This document shows positions 2,337 to 20,454 of a stretch of 20,869 nucleotides of DNA, piece by piece. A model generated the notes under the pieces. That model ran no database searches. It was not told the origin of the DNA and was given only the letters and a program-made list of their open reading frames with translations. Made by a program: the position numbers and the translations under genes. Within the stretch, counting starts at the first letter, position 1; each line of letters opens with the position of its first letter. Where the stretch lies: the IMG/VR virus record IMGVR_UViG_3300049491_000202, positions 1 to 20,869 of that record, one strand, 5' to 3'. The stretch comes from a virus.

Positions 2337-5147
2337 ATGAAGGCTTCAGGTTCCTACGCTTCGCTTGTGCGCGGCGTATCTCAGCAAGTACCGCAGGACC
2401 GTCAACCGGGCCAGCACACCGAGCAGGTGAACCTGATCCCCGACCCGGTGAAGGGCCTTACGCGCCGCCACGGCTCCCGCTGGGTGGCCGAGCAGGCGCT
2501 GGCCCTCGACCCCGCCGATCTGCCCGCTATGATCGCGGACACGGCCAACTGGCGCGCGTTCGACTACAGCAACAATGGCAACGACTTTGTGGTCCTGCAC
2601 CGCACGGCCGCCATTGTCTCGGGCTCGACTCTGCCCCCACTGATTGCGTTCAACCGCACCACGGGCCAGTTCCTGACCTACGTGCGCAACACTGTCGATG
2701 CCCAGCTCGACCTCCTGACCTCAGGCGGCGTGAGCGCCATTACGGCCATCGGCAAGTACGTCTTCATGGCGGGCCACACCACGGTCGCCTCAGCCACCAG
2801 CTCCAACTTATGGGCCGACTCCGGCAACCAGTCCAAGGCTGTGGTCTGGATTCGTGGCGGCGCATACGCGCGGGACTTCACCGCCACTGCCACCAAGCTC
2901 GACAACTCCCAGGTGACCTTCACCTACAAGACCCCGGCCAGCAGCTACCCCGACACCCTTGACACTAGCAAGGTACCCGTATACGCAGCCGACCCGGCTG
3001 GGGGCACGCAGGCGGATACCGAGGCGGCCTATGTGGTCAACGCTTCCGGCGTGTACCGCGCGGAGCTTTCCTGGTTCGCCTGGAACCCGACTTCACTCAC
3101 CATGAAGAAGGGCGCGACGGCCATGACCAACACGTACCCGACTGCCCCGGCGTCGAGCACTCAGTTCTCTTGGGCAACGGGCGATAAGTACGCCGTCTTC
3201 CATTCGAGTAACCTGGGTGCGACTGACCTGACCATGAGCTACACTCATACCAAGACGGTCACCAACCCCAACTACGCCAAGACGGTCAACGACATCACCA
3301 ACGCTTTCAATAGCGCGGTTACCAACTGGATTGGTACCTCCTCGGAAGCGATCACCCCGAACGCCATTGCGGAGCAACTGCGGCTGGCCGCGGTTGCGGC
3401 TGGGCTGACTACCGCCACAAGGCAGCAGTCCACGATCATCTTCGACAACGTGAAGGGCCTCACGGTCCAAGACGGCGGCGACGGCACCCTCATCCGTGGC
3501 GTGGCAAACGAAGTGACCAACATCGATCAGGTGTCGGACATTCACAGCGTTGGAAAGATCGTGAAGGTGCGCACCCGCAATAGTAAAGAAGCCTTTTATT
3601 TGAAGGCCCAGGCCCAGGACGCCGCCATCACAAGCGGCTACACCAAGGTGACTTGGGTGGAAGGGGCGGGGGTGCAGCACACGATCACGAACGCCCTGGT
3701 CTACGCGACAGTGAGCGGCTCCAGCATCTACGTTGCCTCCTCGGCTACGCTGCTGAACACGATCCTCCCAGGCACGCACCCGACATACCCGGTCAGCACC
3801 TGCGGCGACAACGACTCCAGCCCCCTGCCATTCTTCATCGGCAAGAAAATCAGCTACCTCGGCATCTTCCAAGACCGTCTGCTGATCGGCGCGGGTGCCG
3901 TGCTCCGCTGCTCGAAGATCGGAGACTACCTGAACTACTTCCGCAGCTCGGTGCTCACGGTGCCCGCTGACGATTCACTGGAGATGCTGAGCCAAGGCAG
4001 TGAGGATGACGAACTTCGGTTCTCGTGCTTGTACGACCGGGACTTGGTGATCTTCGGCGTGAAGCGCCAGTACGCTATCACGGGCCGCGGCGCGCTGACC
4101 CCGACCTCTGCAAATATGCAGGTGATGTCGAGCCACAGCAACGCCGCTGATATCCCGCCGCTGGCTGTGGGTAGCGTGATCTTCTACGGCCAAGTCGGCG
4201 AGAAGTCTTCGAGCGTCCATCAAATTCAGCCGGGCGTTGTGGCCGAGAGCCCCGAGTCGTTCATTGCCTCGTCGCAGATCGACACGTACCTGCTGGGCAA
4301 GGTGATCGAGCTGAGCAACCACGCGAAGCCGACGCATATCTTTGCTCGCACGCAGGGCTCGCGCAACAGCATCTACTGCTTCAGCTACCTTGACAAGGAG
4401 GGGCAGGGGCGGGTGCAGGATGCGTGGGGGCGTTGGGACTTCAACGAAGACCTTGGGCCGATCATCGGCATGAGCCGCACGCCTGAGGGCTTGCTGGTTT
4501 ACCGCCTGCAATCTGGCGTCAAGTACGATGCCAGTGGCAGCGACGTATGGGTGGTCGCAGACCTCTGCCCGCTCACGACCGGACTGGCGCTGTACCCCTA
4601 CCTTGACTCGATCCGCCCCTTGGCGACCGTCGAAGCGAGCACGGGGGCCACGCACCCGACCACGCTGGGTGACTGGTACACGGCCTTCGACAGCACGAGC
4701 GAGTTCCAGTTCATCGGCGACACGCTTGCCAACTCGGCGGCCCTGGTCACAGAGTTCCCGGCCGCCACAGGCCCTCAGGTCGGCGCACTTCAGCCTTGCT
4801 ACTTCATCCCGACGAACCCATTCGTGAAGGACAAGAACGACAAGGCAATCACGAGCGGCCGGCTGGTCATCACCAGCATCCTGGCCTCGCTGAAGGACTC
4901 TTCGGGGTTCACAACGCAGATCGATGCCAACGAGGGCTCGGTGGTTCACGAGTACAACGGTCGCACCATGGGCGACATCAACAACCTGATCGGGCGCGAG
5001 CCCGTCACGGACACGTTGCAGTCGATCCCCATTGGCCGTGAGACGCGAGAGTACACCATCAAGCTCCTGGCCCGCAAGTGGTTCCCCTTCACCCTGACGA
5101 CCCTCGAATGGATCGGCCAGTTCTACAACCGTACCCAGAGGTTCTAA
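2337..5147 (+). CDS. Tail tubular protein B (gp12-like tail nozzle)
   Basis: This 936-residue protein should form the tail nozzle below the gp11 ring. The N-terminus (GSYASLVRGVSQQVPQDRQPGQHTEQ..NLIPDPVKGLTRR) is the signature of the family, and the C-terminus (KWFPFTLTTLEWIGQFYNRTQRF) is the typical end with WxGxxxxR. A central block, IGKKISYLGIFQDRLLIGAGAVLRCSK, then DYLNYFR, is also typical. It is about 140 residues longer than T7 gp12 (794); the surplus probably lies in the Thr/Ser-rich stretch at about residues 180-320, which may be an exposed insertion. The start is set by AAGGAG six bases upstream of the ATG. Confidence 0.95.
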   Translation: MKASGSYASLVRGVSQQVPQDRQPGQHTEQVNLIPDPVKGLTRRHGSRWVAEQALALDPADLPAMIADTANWRAFDYSNNGNDFVVLHRTAAIVSGSTLPPLIAFNRTTGQFLTYVRNTVDAQLDLLTSGGVSAITAIGKYVFMAGHTTVASATSSNLWADSGNQSKAVVWIRGGAYARDFTATATKLDNSQVTFTYKTPASSYPDTLDTSKVPVYAADPAGGTQADTEAAYVVNASGVYRAELSWFAWNPTSLTMKKGATAMTNTYPTAPASSTQFSWATGDKYAVFHSSNLGATDLTMSYTHTKTVTNPNYAKTVNDITNAFNSAVTNWIGTSSEAITPNAIAEQLRLAAVAAGLTTATRQQSTIIFDNVKGLTVQDGGDGTLIRGVANEVTNIDQVSDIHSVGKIVKVRTRNSKEAFYLKAQAQDAAITSGYTKVTWVEGAGVQHTITNALVYATVSGSSIYVASSATLLNTILPGTHPTYPVSTCGDNDSSPLPFFIGKKISYLGIFQDRLLIGAGAVLRCSKIGDYLNYFRSSVLTVPADDSLEMLSQGSEDDELRFSCLYDRDLVIFGVKRQYAITGRGALTPTSANMQVMSSHSNAADIPPLAVGSVIFYGQVGEKSSSVHQIQPGVVAESPESFIASSQIDTYLLGKVIELSNHAKPTHIFARTQGSRNSIYCFSYLDKEGQGRVQDAWGRWDFNEDLGPIIGMSRTPEGLLVYRLQSGVKYDASGSDVWVVADLCPLTTGLALYPYLDSIRPLATVEASTGATHPTTLGDWYTAFDSTSEFQFIGDTLANSAALVTEFPAATGPQVGALQPCYFIPTNPFVKDKNDKAITSGRLVITSILASLKDSSGFTTQIDANEGSVVHEYNGRTMGDINNLIGREPVTDTLQSIPIGRETREYTIKLLARKWFPFTLTTLEWIGQFYNRTQRF

Positions 5148-5150
5148 ACT

Positions 5151-6023
5151 ATGTGGTGGGATTCAATCGGCGGTGCGTTTGTCGGGATGACCGAGAACGC
5201 GCTCGCCAACAAGAAGATCGAGGTGACCAATCGCCTGGACAAGGTGAACGCGGACGCAAGCAACGCAGTGAGGCAGGCACAGAATGCCTTCACTGCCGCC
5301 AAGGGCTCGCTTGCCCGCTGGACCCAGAGCGTCAACAACAACCGCAGGCTCACGGCTGGCGGTAAGCAGCTCGAAGCGGCCGTTACCAATTACCGCCGCG
5401 AGCGGGACGACCTGGGAAAACAGAGCTTCTCTCAATCGATCCGCATGGCCGAGCAGCAGGGCGCAAGCGCTGCGGCCCAGGCTGCGGCCGGCATCGATGG
5501 CGGTGTGGTAGACATGGTGAACGGGGCCACGGCCCTGCGTGACTCCCTGGTCGCCGAGAACCTGAAGTCCTACGGGGAGCTGGCGGACTACGATGCTGCC
5601 AAGCGCGCGGGTGCCATCACCCTCAATACAGCGCAGGGCTTGGACAATTCGTTGATGCTCGACATGCTGGATTACAACGTGGACATCACGAACCCGCAGG
5701 TGGGCTTCAGCCGCACGGCGGCCATCATGCGGGGCATTGCTAGCTCGCAAGGCGTTAGCCCGGATGCCAGCAACAAGGCAGCGGACAACAGCTACAAATC
5801 CAATGATGCGGGCACCAACGCACGCTTCAGCTTCTCTGGCATGAACGCCAACAACGAGACGCTGAGCGGTGATGCGCACCTCAACAGCAACGGCTACATC
5901 GGCTCGGGCAGTGACTCGTCTTCTTCGCAGCAGCCCTACAAGCTGTGGGACACGGGCAACCTTTACAGCAGCAACTTCGGCAAGCAGGACGAGAACCAGT
6001 CAGGTTCGTTCTGGTCGTTTTAA
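5151..6023 (+). CDS. Internal virion protein B (gp14-like)
   Basis: This 290-residue protein is the expected equivalent of T7 gp14, which is ejected first and forms the outer-membrane part of the DNA-translocation channel. The N-terminus (MWWDSIGGAFVGMTENALANKK) and the following long Ala/Gln-rich helical region (residues about 15-120, for example NAVRQAQNAFTAAKGSLARW) fit the family; the C-terminal third is Ser-, Asn- and Gly-rich and ends in FWSF. T7 gp14 has 196 residues, so this one is longer. It starts three bases after the gp12-like stop with only an AGAGG site, so translational coupling is likely. Assignment rests on N-terminal pattern and synteny. Confidence 0.85.
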   Translation: MWWDSIGGAFVGMTENALANKKIEVTNRLDKVNADASNAVRQAQNAFTAAKGSLARWTQSVNNNRRLTAGGKQLEAAVTNYRRERDDLGKQSFSQSIRMAEQQGASAAAQAAAGIDGGVVDMVNGATALRDSLVAENLKSYGELADYDAAKRAGAITLNTAQGLDNSLMLDMLDYNVDITNPQVGFSRTAAIMRGIASSQGVSPDASNKAADNSYKSNDAGTNARFSFSGMNANNETLSGDAHLNSNGYIGSGSDSSSSQQPYKLWDTGNLYSSNFGKQDENQSGSFWSF

Positions 6024-6032
6024 GGAGGGCCT

Positions 6033-8411
6033 ATGGCTCAGAATGACAACACCCTCGGTGCCCCGACAGAGGGACTGGGGCAGAACGTGACCTTCGCGTT
6101 CAACCCTACGCGCTCCCCGCAGGCGGAAGCCGGCGCAGCGCAGGGCATCCAGGCGTCGCTGGACATCAACGGCAACACGTCGTTCCACAGCCAAGCAGTC
6201 GCCCCGGCGATGCCCGACCATGACCCCACGGTCCAGATGCTGTTCAAGATCGGCGAGCCCCTGGTTCGCCCGTTTGTCCAGCAGCGGCAGACCGAGCAGT
6301 ATATCGCGGGCATGCAGAAGGCAATGCAGGGCGAGGCCATCCAAGACATCGCGGCCAATCGCCCCTGGTACTCCAAGCTGTTCGGCGAGACGGACGTTGT
6401 GGAGGGCGCTCGCCAGTATTACAGCAACACCCGCGCCCAGGAAGTTGTCTCCTCGATGGAAGACAACATGCCCGAGCTGCGCAAGATGCAGCCCGCAGCG
6501 GCTCAGAAGTATTACAGCGAGAACGTGACGGCCGCCCTCACCGGCGATCGGGCCGCGGACGCGGCCATCATGCAGGGCTTTGTGCGGGCCGCTCCGGCGC
6601 TCATGCGGCGTCAGGCGAAGGAGCACTACGGCTGGCGGCAGGAGGAGGCCGCGACGGCTGAGACAGCCAACTTCAAGGCGGGCGCTACGAGCCTCCAGCT
6701 CGCGTCGCAGGGCCTCCAGATGGGGTACATCACCCCTGAGGAATTCGCGGTCAGGAAGGCCGATCTGGTGCGTTCCTGGGCACCTGCTGAAGGCCGGGAC
6801 AGCGAGAACTACCAGAAGACGATGGCGGCAAACCTCATTGCCGCCGCCGAACAGGGGCAGTTCCACGCCATCAACGCTCTGCGCGAGCCCATTGCGCACC
6901 CGGACGGCACAAGCATCAGCTTCCTTGAAGTCCTCACGCCGCAGCAACGCAACGCGGTTGAGGGCGCTGTGAATGCAGGGGAGGCCCGGCTGGTCAACAA
7001 GTACAGCACGGACTGGTCGGAGCGCATCGCGGACCTGAAGTTCAGGGCGCGCATGGGGGGCGACGGCGCAAGCCCGAAGGAGCTGTACGATCAGGGCGTC
7101 TCGATCAACGACGAGTTCCAAAAGGCTACCGGCGTGAGCTACGGCGTGCTGAGCCCCAACGAACTCATCGGCATCAAGGAGACGAGTGGCCTCAAGATCG
7201 CAGCAGCTACCGAAGAGAATGCTCGGCGTGCCGAGGCCAACTTGGAGAAGGCTCGTGCGCTGGGTGACAAGTCCGCGGCGGCACAAGCTGCCGAGAACGA
7301 AAAGGACTCCGTGATCGTGCGCGAGGGGAGCAACGGCAACCTCGGCCTGCTCGTCTCAATGCCGGGCTACACCGAAGAGCGCGCGAACTTCGCCTTCCGC
7401 AACTACTGGCTGACGAAAGACCCGGCCACCCAACTGCGGCTGCTGCAAAGCAACTTCACAAACCACGGCTACACGGTCAAGTCTATTGCCAACGAGATGG
7501 ACGGGCAGGTGAGCAATCAATTGCTCGCCACCAAGCCAACCCTCACCACTGGAATGGAAGCAGCCTCGGCCCGCTTCGACGCGATGTATAACCAGTCGCC
7601 TTCCCTGGCTCTGGCCTACCATCCGGTGAACGGTGCCAAACTGCTGAAGTACCGCCAGCTTCGGGACACAGGTGCCATGGACGCGCCGACTGCATTTGAT
7701 GCTGCCTTCGTGCAGCCTACCCAGAAGCAAAAGGTGCGCGGCGAGACGTTGAAGGCCATCACGGCTGAAATCGTCAGGAGCCAGAACAGCATCGTGCCTG
7801 CGTGGCTGGGTGGCTCGAAGCTCCGCAAGGAGTCCGTGGACGTTCTGACTGATCTGATAGGCCCGGACGTGGAGACGGTGAGCGAGTCCAACCACGACGT
7901 GACCCTCTCAACGAAGATGGTGATTGAGGCCAAGAAGTCCCGCAACGAGCTGGACATCCTGGGCGAGCACGTCGTTCCCAATCGGGGCAACGGTGTGGGC
8001 ATCGAGAGCTACCTCGTGGGCCATGGCGTCAAGCTCCAGCGGGGGCAGGTGCCCATCGGCACGGACAGGGTGGGCGATGTCTTCAACGAAGCGATTCGTG
8101 AGAAGCTGAACACCACCTATGAGACTGGTGCTGACGGCAAGTCCAAAGAGGTCTACGGCATCATGGCCGGCAAGACCCTGACCAACCTGCGCATCGTGCG
8201 CAACCCAGACCGAGAGGGCGTGCCTCAGCTTGCCATCTTAGCGGCCGATGAAGACAACGTGGTTCATACGGCCACCCTCAGTGCCGACTCGATCTTCTCC
8301 CTCTCCGCACGCAAGCGCGCCCGCGGTGGCGACATCATGGGCTTGGACCAGAAGGTCAAGCAAGACCAGAAGCAACTGAACGACGCAATTGCAAAGGCGC
8401 GTCTTCGATAA
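6033..8411 (+). CDS. Internal virion protein C (gp15-like)
   Basis: This 792-residue protein has the size and position of T7 gp15 (747 residues), which forms the periplasmic part of the ejection channel with gp14 and gp16. The sequence is hydrophilic and mainly helical, with several Ala/Glu/Lys-rich stretches (for example EENARRAEANLEKARALG at about residues 395-412) and no clear membrane segment or enzyme motif. The N-terminus (about 60 residues) is low in hydrophobic residues and may be flexible. AAGGAGG six bases upstream fixes the start. I assign it by order between the gp14- and gp16-like genes and by length, not by a diagnostic motif. Confidence 0.82.
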   Translation: MAQNDNTLGAPTEGLGQNVTFAFNPTRSPQAEAGAAQGIQASLDINGNTSFHSQAVAPAMPDHDPTVQMLFKIGEPLVRPFVQQRQTEQYIAGMQKAMQGEAIQDIAANRPWYSKLFGETDVVEGARQYYSNTRAQEVVSSMEDNMPELRKMQPAAAQKYYSENVTAALTGDRAADAAIMQGFVRAAPALMRRQAKEHYGWRQEEAATAETANFKAGATSLQLASQGLQMGYITPEEFAVRKADLVRSWAPAEGRDSENYQKTMAANLIAAAEQGQFHAINALREPIAHPDGTSISFLEVLTPQQRNAVEGAVNAGEARLVNKYSTDWSERIADLKFRARMGGDGASPKELYDQGVSINDEFQKATGVSYGVLSPNELIGIKETSGLKIAAATEENARRAEANLEKARALGDKSAAAQAAENEKDSVIVREGSNGNLGLLVSMPGYTEERANFAFRNYWLTKDPATQLRLLQSNFTNHGYTVKSIANEMDGQVSNQLLATKPTLTTGMEAASARFDAMYNQSPSLALAYHPVNGAKLLKYRQLRDTGAMDAPTAFDAAFVQPTQKQKVRGETLKAITAEIVRSQNSIVPAWLGGSKLRKESVDVLTDLIGPDVETVSESNHDVTLSTKMVIEAKKSRNELDILGEHVVPNRGNGVGIESYLVGHGVKLQRGQVPIGTDRVGDVFNEAIREKLNTTYETGADGKSKEVYGIMAGKTLTNLRIVRNPDREGVPQLAILAADEDNVVHTATLSADSIFSLSARKRARGGDIMGLDQKVKQDQKQLNDAIAKARLR

Positions 8412-8420
8412 AGGAAACCA

Positions 8421-11400
8421 ATGAGCGATATTCGTGACCAACTGAAGTCGGCCATCTACGGCCAAGAGTCCTCCAGCGGCAAGGCTGACACGTCGCAAGA
8501 GAACTATGCCGGGGCGCGCGGCCCCATGCAGGTCACGAAGTCCACCTTCGAGGGCCTCAAAGGGAAGGGCCTGATCCCAACAGCCTGGGACCATGCCAAC
8601 CCCGAGCACACGAAGGCAGCGGGCAACATCCTCATCGATACCCTGGCCGACAAGTATGGAGACGATCCCCGCAAGGTGGCCGCCGCCTACTACGCGGGCG
8701 AGAAGGCAGTGCGTGCCGATGGCACCATCGCTGACTTCCGCGACAAGAAGAACGCCAATGCGCCAACCACGTTGCAGTACGTCTCCCAGGTGCTGAACCG
8801 AATGGGCGTGAGCACCGAGGCAGCGCAAGCAGGCGTCTCCCCTGTCACCAAGATCGAAGCCTTCGACGTGAAGAATTGGGACCAGCAGCGGATGCCGGCC
8901 AAGATCGCCAAGGCGAAGACCCCGCTGTACGACGCGCCCGTACCCAACGGCGACGTGCAGACGATGGCCCCTCTGGCTGTACCCACGGAGAGCCCCATCG
9001 CTGCACAGCAGGCCGCCGCACAAGCGAACGACCAGAAGGCCACCGAGGAGTACGAGAAGTCTACATGGCTGGATCGCAGGCAGAACGGCTGGATGCACAA
9101 CGGCATGTTGGGCTCCGCGCTGAAAGAACTCACCCGCCGTAAGGAGATTCCGGTACCGGGTTTCAACCCACGGGTGCAGGGGATCGAGGCGTACGCCGGC
9201 AAGACGGAAGCGGATCAACTCTTCCTCGACGACGCGGTGAGCCCCCACGATCTGGAACTTCGCAAGGCCGAAATCGAGCAGCGCAATGACGGTATTCGGG
9301 CCGCTAACCTGCACGGCACGGGCGATGCTATCCTGGGCGCGATCTTTGAAGGCCTGCCTGAGGGCATCTTCCTGGGATTCGGCGCGACAAAAGCCTTCCA
9401 GCTTGCCAACATAGCGTCTGCGGCGCGGCTCGCTAGCCAAGGTCGCAAGTGGGCCGCGCTCGGCGCGGAAGCTGCGCAGGGCGCTGTGGGTAACGTGGTG
9501 CCGCTGGCCGTACAAGACCAGTGGGACCACTACGTCGGCGTGGAAGACTACGGCATGCAGGCGTCGTTCGGTGTGCTGTTCGCCGGCCTGCACTACCAGG
9601 GCATCGGCCGGGCTGTAGAAGGCGCGCAGATGAAGGCCCTGGGTCAGAAGATGATGGAGGAGGCCAGCATCCGCGTACAGGCGACGCGGGCCAAGGCCAT
9701 CGACAACCTGGGCGAGGGGCCGCACACGCCCGAGGCCCTGGCCGCCGAGGTGGCCCGCCTGGAAGCCGAGTCTATCCACAAGGACGTAGCCGCTGTCACA
9801 GCCCCCGTGACTGAGGACCGCGTGCTCCTGCCCCGTGAGTTGTTCGAGCCCCCGAAAGCCAAGGCCGTTGCGCCCTCTGGCGACCCCGCCTTGACAACTG
9901 GCCCGAATGGCGCGCAAGTGCCCTCCGGTCAGCAGCGCTTCGGAGAGAGCGCCCTGTACAACGAGGAAGAGGCGCGTAAGGCGCTGAAGTTCGCGGGCAT
10001 TGGCCCTGACGAGATGAGGGCCGAGCTAGCGAAGGTGGACAAGATCGCTACCGGCGAGGCGCAAGCCAAGGCCAAGACGCCTATCGAGATGCAGGCGGCT
10101 GTCCGGTTCCATGGCGAGAAGCCCGTCTGGGACAAGTTCGGAGACAACTACGATCTGACCCGCATCGAGCACTTCAAAAGCGGCCGCACGGCGGCGCAAG
10201 TCGCCGAGGTAGAAGGTGTGCGCGTGAGCTGGCTTCTGCGCCAAGCTCCCGGTCTGCACGTTCTGACGAAGCTCGCAGAGAACTCGCGCATGAAGCCCGT
10301 CATCGAAGCAGCGCGATCGCTGGCAAGCCAGTTTCTCCCGGACTCACGGATCGCCTTTGGTATCGACGAGGGGAAGATCGGCAACACCGGGGTGCGCGAG
10401 CGCCCAACTCACGACGCCATTGTGTACTCCGCGGGGAGCAACCACATCATCGGCGTGCGGGACAACCTGGGCTGGCATGACGCGCTGACTGGAGTGATAC
10501 ACGAGCTGGGACACGCAATCTTCCACGAGAATGCACGGCACATTCCGGCCGAGCTTCTGGGCCGCATGGTCAAAGAGCACGGCGAGTTCCTGGCAGACCT
10601 TCGGGCCGGCAAGGCAAGCGCTCGCTTGAAGCGTTCGTCTGAGGGTAGCGCCAGCGCGTTCAACGCTGACGGCTCCCTCAAGGGCAAGATGGCGAATCTC
10701 GAATACAACGCCAACTTTGACGAGTACACCGCCGAGTCGTTTGTTCGCTACGTGCAGAAGAAGGCCCGTGAGGGTGGCGGCCCTGAGCTGCCGAAGAGCG
10801 CACTTGACATCCTGGCGCAAGCCTGGGAGAAGATCAAGGAGTTCTACACCAAGGCGCTGGACAAGGGATACCTGTCGAAGGACGAGGCGTTCCACGAGTT
10901 CTTCGACCGAGTGCTGAAGGGCACTCTGAAGCAAGAGCAGAACCTGGGGCAACCTGAGTTCTTGGATGCGGGCCTCGTGCTGCCCCAGCTCAGCCAGAAG
11001 TCGCATGGCCTTGACACCATCCCCGAGAAGTCGGTGCAGCAGCAAGCCGAGAAGCAGGCCATCACAAGTCTGTACGCAAAAGCTGTCGAGTGGGCCAAGA
11101 TCAACGTGATCGACAATGCCCGCCTGAAGTCCCTCACGGACAACAGCGTGTTCAACGTCGCAAGCACGGGCCTGCTCATGCTGAAGTCGAAGAACCCTGT
11201 GATGCGCATGGTCGCAAGCGAGCTGGTGGAATCCGCCAGTGGGGCAACGGGCCGCAAGGACACCGCTGCCATCGGCAAGTACATCAACGAACGCGCCTAC
11301 ATGGGCAACACCATCAACGAGGTTCAGTCTGCATACACCATCTGGCGAAACTCCCAGGGCGGCAACGTCTTTGGGGACATCTGGGACGGCAAGCTCAAGC

Positions 11401-13382
11401 AACACTTCGACCGCTTGGTTGCTCAGGAAATCGAATCCAGGCGACCCGGTGCCACGCGCATCGAAGCACCTGAGGCAGTCGTCAAGGCTGCTGACTCTTA
11501 CGAGCGCGCGTACACCCGTATGCGTACTGCTCAGGTCGAAGCCAAGACCATCGGATGGGCAAGCCTGCCGGCCACAAGCGTAGGCTACATGCCCCACCGC
11601 ATGAGCCCGGAGAAGGCTCGCACGATGACGGATGCGGAACGAGGTGCTCTGCACACGACGCTCGTGGACCAGTTCATCAACATCGAAGGCTTTGACATCA
11701 CGTTCAGCGCGCATCTGGCTAACCAGTACATCGACCGGATTCAAAGCCGGGCGCTGGGCGGCTACGAGACGGCGAGCGGCATCCACCAAGTGGGGGCTGC
11801 GGACGTGGTTGAAGAGGCGCTGGGACAGATGGGCTTGTCGCGCGAGCAGATCAGGGAGATGATGAAGAAGTACGTGGCGGGTGGCGCAGGCCACACCAAG
11901 CGGCGTCTTCAGCTCGACCTGAACGCTGAGCACGACAACGGCGCTGGCGGCACGTTCCGCCTGCTGGACCTCTTCGAGACAGACCAGCTCAAACTCCTGC
12001 GCGGGCAGGCTGGCCGCGTGAGCGGCGAGGTGGCCCTGGCCCGTCACGGCGTCATGGGCAAGCCCGGCTTGAAGCTCCTCCGTAAGGCAATGGAGTACGG
12101 CGCTGATGGAGAGAAGACCACACCGCAGGAGATGGAGGCGTTCGACCAAGTGGCCGCAGAGCTGCTGAGCGAGCCCTTCGGCACGGCGGGTGGCAAGTGG
12201 CTCGACCGGGCCATGACGACCAACAGCCTCGCGCGCCTGGGCGGTATGGGCTTCACGCAGTTCGCAGAGTTCATCAACGGCTTCGCGCACATTGGCGTGG
12301 CCGGGACGCTGGACGCTGTGGGAGGCATGGTGCGGCTGCGCGCTGAGGCAAAAGCCCTGGCCCGCGGTGAGAAGGTGGACAACCCCATCCTCTCGTCTGT
12401 GGAGATTCACGGCGGCGCTGAGTTCGGAACCGATGCCTACAAGATCGTGTTCCCGTTCGATAATGGCAATCAAGCGTACCAGACCTACGGGAAGGACACG
12501 CTGACGTTCGCTGACCGCGCACTCCGCGGGGCTTCGCACGTTCAAGCCAAGCTTAGCATGTGGCGCTCGATCCACTCTGCGCAACAGCGCGGGATGGCCG
12601 AGCAGATCATCCACAAGGCGGTGAAGTACGTGCGTGGCGGCGTGGAAGACAAGGCACTTGCAGACATGGGCTTCACGGCCGATGTCCGAGCAGCAATGCG
12701 CGAGAGCTTGGCCGACATAGCCACGTTCGACGCGAACGGTAACCTCGCTCGATTCGACATCACCAAGATGGCGGACACAGCCGCGGCCAACCAGTTCGTG
12801 CAGGCGGTTCACCGCGGCACCTCGCAGATCATCCAGGGCACCTTCATTGGTGAGACTGGCAAGTGGGCGCACAACGACTACCTGAAGCTGATGACGCAGT
12901 TCCGGTCTTTCAGTATCACGTCAGTGGAAAAGCAATGGGCACGGCAAGTGGGCAACCACGGCACCGGCGCTGTCATTGGTCTGCTGCTCGGGTCGATGGC
13001 TGCGGCTGCCCCGATCTACATTGCGCGTACCCTGCTCGCCTCACAAGGGCGGCCGGATCGTGAAGCGTATCTGGAGAAACAACTGAGCGCGGCACAGATC
13101 GCGCGAGCCACGATGAACTACGTGGCGCTAACCGGCTTGACCGGCGACATGCTGGACGCACTCACTGCCGTCTCCGGCGCTGGCACCGTCACAGGTGGGC
13201 GCTCGAATGCAGGGTCGCAGTTTGTCGGCAACGTCGTGGCACCCGCCGCTGGCTTGGTCGATGACTTGTGGCGCGGCATCCAGAACACGAAGGCAGGCAC
13301 AGACCCGTCCGACCTTGTGAAGAATCTTCCCTTCGCAAAGCTGCCGTTCCTCGCACCCGCGATCAACAGCTTCCTCCCGTAA
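8421..13382 (+). CDS. Internal virion protein D with transglycosylase and metallopeptidase domains (gp16-like)
   Basis: This 1653-residue protein should be ejected into the cell envelope and complete the DNA channel. Residues 1-130 are a lytic transglycosylase (SLT) domain: catalytic Glu16 in GQESSSG, the ARGPMQV motif, and AAAYYAGEKAV. A hydrophobic Ala-rich region follows at about 305-370. Residues about 620-790 contain HELGHAIFHE (694-703), a zinc-binding HExxH motif, and downstream FDEYTAESF (766-774), a good source of the third ligand (E768 or E772). A large helical C-terminal half includes a membrane-like stretch at about 1513-1540 (GAVIGLLLGSMAAAAPIYIA). T7 gp16 has 1318 residues; the peptidase region could account for much of the surplus. 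AAAGGA precedes the ATG. The transglycosylase and gp16 roles are secure; peptidase activity is inferred. Confidence 0.92.
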   Translation: MSDIRDQLKSAIYGQESSSGKADTSQENYAGARGPMQVTKSTFEGLKGKGLIPTAWDHANPEHTKAAGNILIDTLADKYGDDPRKVAAAYYAGEKAVRADGTIADFRDKKNANAPTTLQYVSQVLNRMGVSTEAAQAGVSPVTKIEAFDVKNWDQQRMPAKIAKAKTPLYDAPVPNGDVQTMAPLAVPTESPIAAQQAAAQANDQKATEEYEKSTWLDRRQNGWMHNGMLGSALKELTRRKEIPVPGFNPRVQGIEAYAGKTEADQLFLDDAVSPHDLELRKAEIEQRNDGIRAANLHGTGDAILGAIFEGLPEGIFLGFGATKAFQLANIASAARLASQGRKWAALGAEAAQGAVGNVVPLAVQDQWDHYVGVEDYGMQASFGVLFAGLHYQGIGRAVEGAQMKALGQKMMEEASIRVQATRAKAIDNLGEGPHTPEALAAEVARLEAESIHKDVAAVTAPVTEDRVLLPRELFEPPKAKAVAPSGDPALTTGPNGAQVPSGQQRFGESALYNEEEARKALKFAGIGPDEMRAELAKVDKIATGEAQAKAKTPIEMQAAVRFHGEKPVWDKFGDNYDLTRIEHFKSGRTAAQVAEVEGVRVSWLLRQAPGLHVLTKLAENSRMKPVIEAARSLASQFLPDSRIAFGIDEGKIGNTGVRERPTHDAIVYSAGSNHIIGVRDNLGWHDALTGVIHELGHAIFHENARHIPAELLGRMVKEHGEFLADLRAGKASARLKRSSEGSASAFNADGSLKGKMANLEYNANFDEYTAESFVRYVQKKAREGGGPELPKSALDILAQAWEKIKEFYTKALDKGYLSKDEAFHEFFDRVLKGTLKQEQNLGQPEFLDAGLVLPQLSQKSHGLDTIPEKSVQQQAEKQAITSLYAKAVEWAKINVIDNARLKSLTDNSVFNVASTGLLMLKSKNPVMRMVASELVESASGATGRKDTAAIGKYINERAYMGNTINEVQSAYTIWRNSQGGNVFGDIWDGKLKQHFDRLVAQEIESRRPGATRIEAPEAVVKAADSYERAYTRMRTAQVEAKTIGWASLPATSVGYMPHRMSPEKARTMTDAERGALHTTLVDQFINIEGFDITFSAHLANQYIDRIQSRALGGYETASGIHQVGAADVVEEALGQMGLSREQIREMMKKYVAGGAGHTKRRLQLDLNAEHDNGAGGTFRLLDLFETDQLKLLRGQAGRVSGEVALARHGVMGKPGLKLLRKAMEYGADGEKTTPQEMEAFDQVAAELLSEPFGTAGGKWLDRAMTTNSLARLGGMGFTQFAEFINGFAHIGVAGTLDAVGGMVRLRAEAKALARGEKVDNPILSSVEIHGGAEFGTDAYKIVFPFDNGNQAYQTYGKDTLTFADRALRGASHVQAKLSMWRSIHSAQQRGMAEQIIHKAVKYVRGGVEDKALADMGFTADVRAAMRESLADIATFDANGNLARFDITKMADTAAANQFVQAVHRGTSQIIQGTFIGETGKWAHNDYLKLMTQFRSFSITSVEKQWARQVGNHGTGAVIGLLLGSMAAAAPIYIARTLLASQGRPDREAYLEKQLSAAQIARATMNYVALTGLTGDMLDALTAVSGAGTVTGGRSNAGSQFVGNVVAPAAGLVDDLWRGIQNTKAGTDPSDLVKNLPFAKLPFLAPAINSFLP

Positions 13383-19580: not shown

Positions 19581-20087
19581 ATGAAGCGCATCTACGAGAA
19601 GGCGGCCATCGCGGTCGCTGGCATCGGGCTGCGCCGTATTGCTGCTGTGATGACCCTCTCGGTAGCAGGTGCCAGCGGCATCGTCTACCATGAGGGCACG
19701 GTCGGCAAGGTTTACCTCGACCCCGTGGGCATTCCCACGGTCTGTGTGGGCCACACCCGCACAGTGACCAAGGCCGACGTAGGCAAGGACATGAGCGCTC
19801 AATGCGCGCAGCTCCTCGTCTCCGACACCAAAGCAGCTCAGTCTGCGGTGGGCCGGTTGGTTCTGGTGCCTGTCACCCAGGCACAATACGACGCTTTGGT
19901 GTCGTTCACATTCAATGTCGGTGAGGGGAACCTCCGCTCATCGACTCTCCTCCTCAAGCTCAACAGCTACGACTGCCACGGGGCAGCGGCTGAGTTCCCT
20001 CGCTGGAACAAGGCTCGGGGCAAGGTTCTCCCTGGACTGGTCAAACGGAGGGCGGATGAGCGCATCACCTTCGAGCAGGATTGCTGA
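19581..20087 (+). CDS. SAR endolysin, GH24 lysozyme (muramidase)
   Basis: This 168-residue protein should cleave the MurNAc-GlcNAc bond of peptidoglycan. It has the exact E-8aa-D-5aa-T triad of T4-type lysozymes: E38, D47 and T53 in YHEGTVGKVYLDPVGIPTVCVGH. Later family blocks are ALVSFTFNVGEGNLRSSTLL and the PGLVKRRADERxxF end. Residues about 20-36 (IAAVMTLSVAGASGIVY), rich in Ala, Gly and Ser and preceded by Arg18-Arg19, look like a signal-anchor-release segment, so the enzyme can be exported by Sec and activated on release from the membrane. The Shine-Dalgarno is weak and distant, so coupling to the upstream gene is likely. It overlaps the next gene by 32 bases. Confidence 0.9.
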   Translation: MKRIYEKAAIAVAGIGLRRIAAVMTLSVAGASGIVYHEGTVGKVYLDPVGIPTVCVGHTRTVTKADVGKDMSAQCAQLLVSDTKAAQSAVGRLVLVPVTQAQYDALVSFTFNVGEGNLRSSTLLLKLNSYDCHGAAAEFPRWNKARGKVLPGLVKRRADERITFEQDC

Positions 20088-20454
20088 GTACGTCAAGGCT
20101 CATGGACACAAGCCTGTGCAAGTCACCGTGCCCATGCTCCGGTACTGGCACAAGCGCATCAACGATGAGCTGTTCAACGGCTTCTTGCTCCCGTGCCAGC
20201 TCACTACCGGCGAGTCCGACCTGAGCTACGCGGGTGCCCCTGCATCCGTGCTGGGCCTCTGCTACAGCCTCGAAGACGGCCGTGTGCGGGTCCACATCGA
20301 CGAGCAGGTGGGCCTTCGGGCCAGCATGCTCTCGACCCTCCTGCACGAGATGGTCCACCAGTGGCAACACCAGTCGGGCTACCCCATGAACCACGGCTCC
20401 CGCTTCCGCGCTCAGCGCCGCAGGCTGCTTGCCGCCACCGGACTCACGATATGA
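20056..20454 (+). CDS. SprT-like zinc metallopeptidase
   Basis: The 132-residue protein starts at ATG 20056 with GGAGG four bases upstream, inside the end of the endolysin gene. It has the SprT/Spartan core: an N-terminal helix (MLRYWHKRINDELFNG, 27-42), strands around DGRVRVHI, the zinc site HEMVHQWQH (97-105), and MNHGSRFRAQ (111-120), where H113 is the likely third ligand. SprT-like proteins in hosts act on DNA-protein crosslinks or have unknown roles. Sporadic copies are known in phages. Here it sits between endolysin and spanins, with no signal peptide, so a role in lysis cannot be taken for granted. It overlaps Rz at ATGA. Confidence 0.88.
   Translation: MSASPSSRIAEYVKAHGHKPVQVTVPMLRYWHKRINDELFNGFLLPCQLTTGESDLSYAGAPASVLGLCYSLEDGRVRVHIDEQVGLRASMLSTLLHEMVHQWQHQSGYPMNHGSRFRAQRRRLLAATGLTI

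Follow-up and report, generated by a model that had tools for sequence, protein, structure and literature searches.

Zincin-type metallopeptidase (MPTase) domains form a known superfamily, and the presence of one in an ejected phage protein is also known: the virion RNA polymerase (vRNAP) of N4 carries a zincin-like domain (PMC5512222, PMC8472413, PMC12633501). The MPTases of polyvalent proteins fall into 12 clades (PMC5512222); gp16, T7-like, and internal virion are all absent from the text of that paper. For T7 gp16, a published model places residues 1 to 228 in the periplasm and residues 411 to 1118 (gp16-C) in the cytoplasm (PMC8954989). Two further ejected proteins have deposited structures. 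The tetrameric ejection protein (TEP) of PhiM1 (PDB 8VB2) belongs to the gp16-type ejectosome proteins and has an inserted domain in its hub; the cryo-EM work named this domain, residues 268 to 528, "endolysin/exotransglycosidase-like" by BLASTP and DALI (PMC11440229). The phiKMV/LUZ19/LKD16 protein gp37 (PDB 9SFN chain G) belongs to the same protein family as the one described here, and the records examined for it contain no metallopeptidase annotation.

Here, we analyze a predicted zincin-type domain within a gp16-like protein of a T7-like podovirus. In the literature that we searched, of which coverage was partial, we found no report of a metallopeptidase in a gp16-type protein.

A gp16-like ejection protein in a T7-like structural module

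The stretch of DNA analyzed as a whole (the window, 20,869 bases of an IMG/VR virus record) comes from a T7-like podovirus and contains its structural module. It encodes a major capsid protein, tail tube, nozzle, gp14-, gp15-, and gp16-like internal virion proteins, and a tail fibre, in that order and followed by a T7-type large terminase; a lysozyme is encoded in the same module. The features of the gp16-like protein and its neighbours are as follows.

5151..6023, +, gp14-like internal virion protein (phrog_5745, E 4.2e-30)
6033..8411, +, gp15-like internal virion protein (phrog_3883, E 2.7e-92)
8421..13382, +, gp16-like internal virion (ejection) protein, 1653 aa (phrog_342, E 1.4e-186; gene order)
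8436..8753, +, N-terminal lytic transglycosylase (SLT) domain, aa 6-111 (Pfam PF01464, E 1.7e-9)
11079..13373, +, conserved gp16 C-terminal core, aa 887-1651 (core profile from alignment A2)

The family profile (phrog_342, "internal virion protein with endolysin domain") covers residues 10 to 1651, the SLT domain is N-terminal, and gp14- and gp15-like genes lie upstream. The gp16-like identity given in a preliminary description of this DNA is thus borne out by the SLT match, the profile match, and the T7-like gene order. T7 gp16 has the same SLT domain, conserved core, and gene order. In a Pfam scan of the window protein, the N-terminal transglycosylase was the sole domain recognised.

Several other features of the window were observed. 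The gp14-like protein (5151-6020, +) has a Pfam erythromycin esterase match (E 5e-4) that is below cut-off and that we took as spurious. Very long open frames lie opposite the structural genes at 10344-12872, 8238-9917, and 3975-4949 (all on the minus strand); these are most likely a by-product of high G+C content and codon bias and not genes. A second, separate HExxH gene, SprT-like with HEMVH, is located at 19915-20454 (+) in the lysis/late region (Pfam E 3.1e-6, above cut-off), and its 5' part overlaps the lysozyme frame (19581-20087).

The HExxH motif and its conservation among relatives

The preliminary description had proposed a zinc metallopeptidase domain at 10239-10800, with HELGHAIFHE at residues 694 to 703 and a third ligand supplied by FDEYTAESF. 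Both motifs are located where it placed them (nt 10500 for the first; residue 766, nt 10716, for the second). A domain is indeed present in that interval, and its actual extent is somewhat longer.

10242..10928, +, zincin-like metallopeptidase domain, aa 608-836 (model pLDDT 89, pTM 0.87; conserved family)
10500..10514, +, HExxH active-site motif H694-E695-L-G-H698 (sequence, conservation)
10632..10634, +, R738, invariant within the window's subtype
10704..10706, +, Y762, invariant within the window's subtype
10722..10724, +, E768, predicted third zinc ligand, invariant (40/40 inserts)
10734..10736, +, E772, one helix turn past E768, invariant in the window's subtype only

HELGH is the sole HExxH in the 1653-aa protein. 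When the protein was shuffled, HExxH occurred in 5.3% of the shuffled sequences, and HExxH with E..A 60 to 80 residues further on occurred in 0.9%. At these rates the motif alone is weak evidence, and relatives therefore had to serve for ruling out chance.

Relatives were reached in several ways. With the insert alone as a tblastn query, the sole relative reached was Curvibacter phage P26059B, at 23% identity; HE.GH and FDE..AE.FV are among the residues common to the two inserts. A scan of viral contigs with the single 360-aa insert found no relative, and the same kind of scan with a two-sequence alignment (window and P26059B) recovered further relatives. Scanning with only the conserved gp16 core, a query that takes no account of the insert, gave 80 gp16 loci. 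A genome-contig scan with a seq­uence set of seven aligned rows yielded 0 relatives among 587 pattern matches. Profiles from the full 31-row alignment are too divergent for pattern scans.

Among 40 gp16 inserts, with a mean column identity of 20%, the only invariant columns are H694, E695, H698, and E768; because HExxH was the criterion for entering the first alignment, the invariance of that motif is partly circular, and that of E768 is not. We also searched with a profile in which the motif columns were masked. This profile matched 47 non-redundant gp16 proteins, one of which has HEALH (L077), and HExxH was kept in 47 of 47, a tally that differs from a population frequency in that the loci were gathered from window-like cores. 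Within the window's own subtype, R738, Y762, A771, and E772 are additionally invariant. The alignments thus make E768 the universal candidate for the third ligand, the invariance of E772 being limited to the window's subtype. The relatives retain the His and Glu residues whose loss would have spoken against the proposed site.

A predicted zincin-type fold and its nearest families

AlphaFold2 models built with 30 to 31 family sequences reached a pLDDT of 83.6 for a 315-aa construct, and a pLDDT of 89.0 and pTM of 0.87 for a 228-aa construct. The predicted elements are a helix at 622-638, strands at 643-648, 666-671, and 674-679, the HExxH helix at 685-707, and the E768 helix at 766-784 (in the domain numbering of the model, H15-31, E36-41, E59-64, E67-72, H78-100, ..., H159-177).

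10416..10457, +, second and third core strands, aa 666-671 and 674-679, immediately preceding the active-site helix (predicted secondary structure)

The strand-like stretch IVYSAGSNHIIGV, which begins at residue 667, falls in this region, so the earlier reading of a beta-type stretch followed by a HELGH helix agrees with the model. The order of elements matches that of the core fold described for polyvalent-protein MPTases (PMC5512222), with HExxH on the first C-terminal helix and the conserved Glu on the second. In the model, E768 falls on the helix where the third ligand would be expected. Together, the predicted fold and the conserved residues support a zincin-type architecture in which all catalytic residues are retained, and with it the metallopeptidase call as a model-based assignment.

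Fold comparison was divided. Searched against viral predicted structures (BFVD), the model found its best match in a protein with a "large polyvalent protein associated domain" (E 1.9e-4, probability 1.00), in agreement with the likeness to polyvalent proteins suggested at the outset; weaker matches include M34, SprT-like, IrrE, and a phiKMV-type internal core protein. Foldseek against the PDB gave no significant match (best E 0.06 to 0.08, M61 aminopeptidase), and the entries near the top, several of them HExxH proteins, include M61 aminopeptidase, SPRTN, and alphaKG-HExxH oxygenases. A sequence profile searched against the PDB matched the internal virion protein 9sfn_G (1337 aa, E 5.8e-7), IrrE (8e-4), and thermolysin (about 0.01).

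At the level of family profiles, the window domain sequence matched no peptidase family above cut-off in Pfam, NCBIfam, or PHROG, and the NCBIfam and PHROG scans gave no coherent match. The Pfam MPTase-PolyVal model (PF18818) left the window unmatched and matched 1 of 40 inserts (E 0.012). This part of the expected polyvalent relationship was not recovered; the other part was, in that subtype B of the domain (see below) matches the vRNAP of Schitoviridae (Kc283) at E 1.4e-6. Subtypes A and B match each other at E 2.1e-5. Because a single model may fail to span 12 clades, the PF18818 result need not exclude a polyvalent MPTase, and we filed the window domain as a polyvalent-type zincin and not as a PF18818 member. 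The SLT domain of the same large protein is an unrelated enzymatic domain fused in polyvalent style. Pfam M78 (PF06114) matched 10 of the 40 inserts (best E 5.2e-5), the window sequence not being one of them. Peptidase M78/IrrE-ImmA proteins share the HExxH...E gluzincin arrangement, and IrrE is the best non-phage sequence match in the PDB; however, the window domain has neither a helix-turn-helix nor a repressor-cleaving context.

A slot in gp16 with variable content

Multiple alignment with T7 gp16 and relatives without the insert delimits a cargo slot in the window protein. Residues ~497 to 886 align at T7 gp16 residues ~472 to 478, where the slot is closed, and T7 gp16 thus lacks the cargo domain, as had been claimed.

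9909..11078, +, cargo slot, aa ~497-886, absent from T7 gp16 (multiple alignment with T7 and slot-less relatives)
L057:6434-7036, L083:6416-7033, and L092:6428-7030, GNAT-like slot domains in three relatives (QGIA/QGIG-type motif, sub-cut-off Pfam match)

In short gp16 proteins (~1200 to 1350 aa), the slot is mostly empty. In the three relatives listed, a GNAT acetyltransferase-like domain occupies the slot instead of the zincin; its best Pfam E values (1.3e-4 for L057 and L092, 9e-4 for L083) are below the curated cut-offs. Relatives of the L057 domain were sought in named phages, and none were found. Mapped on the core tree, slot states comprise 45 zincin, 18 none, and 3 GNAT, and require seven changes. 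The HERLH at residue 559 of T7 gp16 (L097) was considered as a relic of the domain and rejected, since it is located in the conserved core, outside the slot; we took it as a chance occurrence.

Exchange of two zincin subtypes between gp16 backbones

The inserts fall into two zincin subtypes, A with FDExxAEQF (the window's) and B with DEFxAGLYSG. The domain tree separates them, with full support for the branch between A and the remainder. A core tree in which the carriers of subtype B were forced into one clade was rejected (delta lnL 128.7, AU p 2.5e-5), with groups that were defined after inspection of the sequences. Pairs of proteins point the same way: L017 and L022 share 65% identity in the core and 28% in the domain, and the corresponding values for L006 and L023 are 42% and 39%. 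Given the AU rejection and these identities, the zincin insert has been exchanged, subtype for subtype, among gp16 backbones. We do not claim that the domain evolves faster than the core, since branch lengths compared inside one subtype are similar in both trees; the claim is limited to exchange of subtypes. Among the matches listed, subtype B occurs in named phages of Pseudomonas, Achromobacter, Bordetella, Erwinia, Variovorax, and Providencia, where the proteins are labelled internal virion protein, internal protein, or hypothetical protein.

Related domains in other ejected proteins

In the phiKMV group, the equivalent slot of LKD16 gp37 contains HEAVH (423) and a Glu (496). Over this stretch LKD16 is 99.5% identical to LUZ19v, and the gp37 domain is subtype-B-like, unlike that of the window. 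The PhiM1 ejection protein (L101, 2198-5989) has HEAAH at 385 and Glu at 449, and comparison with the profile of subtype B matched its residues 268 to 528 at 97.2% probability (E 3.5e-11). This zincin match stands against the published endolysin/exotransglycosidase-like label, and judging from sequence comparison the domain was probably misassigned and merits re-examination. The same partial literature coverage returned no mention of this probable misassignment.

The N4 vRNAP MPTase shares HExxH, the Glu on the second C-terminal helix, and a three-strand core with the window domain, and both carriers are giant virion proteins that are ejected, or in the window's case would be ejected, ahead of or with the DNA. 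The carriers differ, that of the window being a T7-type gp16 with SLT domain and gp16 core and that of N4 a vRNAP, and subtype A is only distantly like the N4 type, as seen in its distance from subtype B and in its match to Kc283 (E 0.005). A window-type zincin also occurs in a 1711-aa giant phage protein (L016:5219-10354), with HEVGH at 601 and FDEYAAE, accompanied by a weak match to LPD39 and a C-terminal antirestriction region resembling DarB; L118 lies on the same contig.

Proposed mechanism and alternative explanations

We propose that residues 608 to 836 form a gluzincin-type (HExxH...E) metallopeptidase domain of the polyvalent-protein kind, inserted in gp16, the ejectosome component that in T7-type phages occupies the inner membrane and cytoplasm, as exchangeable cargo that is ejected and cleaves host proteins before phage gene expression, and we give this reading a probability of roughly 0.5. 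If the protein behaves as the gp16 family does, few copies of it would be packaged per virion, and the cargo would thread through the tail ahead of the genome. The position equivalent to T7 residues ~472 to 478 lies within the 411 to 1118 region, and by analogy with T7 the cargo would therefore reach the cytoplasm, where the zincin would refold at the cytoplasmic face of the inner membrane. Zn2+ would be bound by H694, H698, and E768, with E695 as the general base, and the enzyme may, ahead of phage gene expression, cleave at least one host protein that serves in defence or DNA processing or is otherwise a target of takeover. We favour a host-directed role over a fixed step in ejection because the domain can be absent, replaced by a GNAT-like domain, or swapped for the other subtype while the core is kept; we infer that such a role explains the variability of the slot better.

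The main rival, though an unlikely one, is that an active metallopeptidase processes the ejection proteins themselves, either gp16 in cis or gp14/gp15, for example by releasing the cytoplasmic gp16 core or by disassembling the channel after DNA entry. The domain lies between the periplasmic/membrane half and the core, so that cleavage there would split them, and autoprocessing has been proposed as a common role of polyvalent MPTases, as in DdrB of phage P1 (PMC5512222). However, the channel works without the domain in T7 and many relatives with empty slots and in others with GNAT-like domains, N4 vRNAP is packaged unprocessed despite its own MPTase (PMC5512222), and PhiM1 TEP was modelled in the virion with the homologous domain present (PMC11440229). 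Less likely again is a metal-binding domain that is not a protease, with other HExxH chemistry such as that of alpha-ketoglutarate-dependent oxygenases, or with a structural site for packing or refolding of gp16. Two such oxygenases (SjiH, 22ob; ChlB HExxH, 8s5f) appear beside peptidases among the weak PDB fold matches, and encapsidation of N4 vRNAP requires the MPTase-containing region (PMC5512222). Purely structural metal sites would not require the general-base Glu, though, which is invariant here; the sequence-profile neighbours are peptidases and IrrE; and slots that are empty or GNAT-filled indicate that the domain is dispensable for assembly.

A peptidoglycan-acting, endolysin-like domain would accord with the role published for PhiM1 TEP 268-528 (PMC11440229) and with the ability of certain zinc enzymes to cleave peptidoglycan peptides. 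We regard it as improbable: the window protein has its own SLT domain at residues 6 to 111, from which the "endolysin" label on gp16 families may derive, the slot follows the membrane region within the half assigned to the cytoplasm, and the PhiM1 domain itself has the HEAAH, Glu, and subtype-B match given above. That HExxH arose by chance in a helical protein and marks no functional site is hardly credible. Such a motif does appear in 5% of shuffled versions, but four catalytic-type residues are invariant over deeply diverged inserts, in independent subtypes, and in other ejected proteins, and we rejected this explanation on the conservation data.

Implications for short-tailed phages

Our preferred reading, a host-directed zincin, can be extended to the slot as a whole, more tentatively. 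The gp16 slot, which would lie past the membrane region toward the cytoplasm, may be a dedicated cargo bay for interchangeable effectors (two zincin subtypes, GNAT acetyltransferases, or nothing) that would hit host proteins before phage expression, which would make the podophage channel an effector-delivery machine. Neither an exchangeable slot with a GNAT alternative nor the spread of zincins in T7-type gp16 was found in the literature searched, with partial coverage.

Cultured phages with laboratory hosts have the domain, including Pseudomonas putida KT2440 phages such as Villemi and the phiKMV group, and related domains are present in two deposited structures (8VB2 and 9SFN); the question is therefore open to immediate testing. 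In the best-studied injection machine of a short-tailed phage, gp16 is the component about which least is understood. Should many of its relatives bring a protease or an acetyltransferase into the cytoplasm before the DNA arrives, anti-defence or host takeover could precede transcription.
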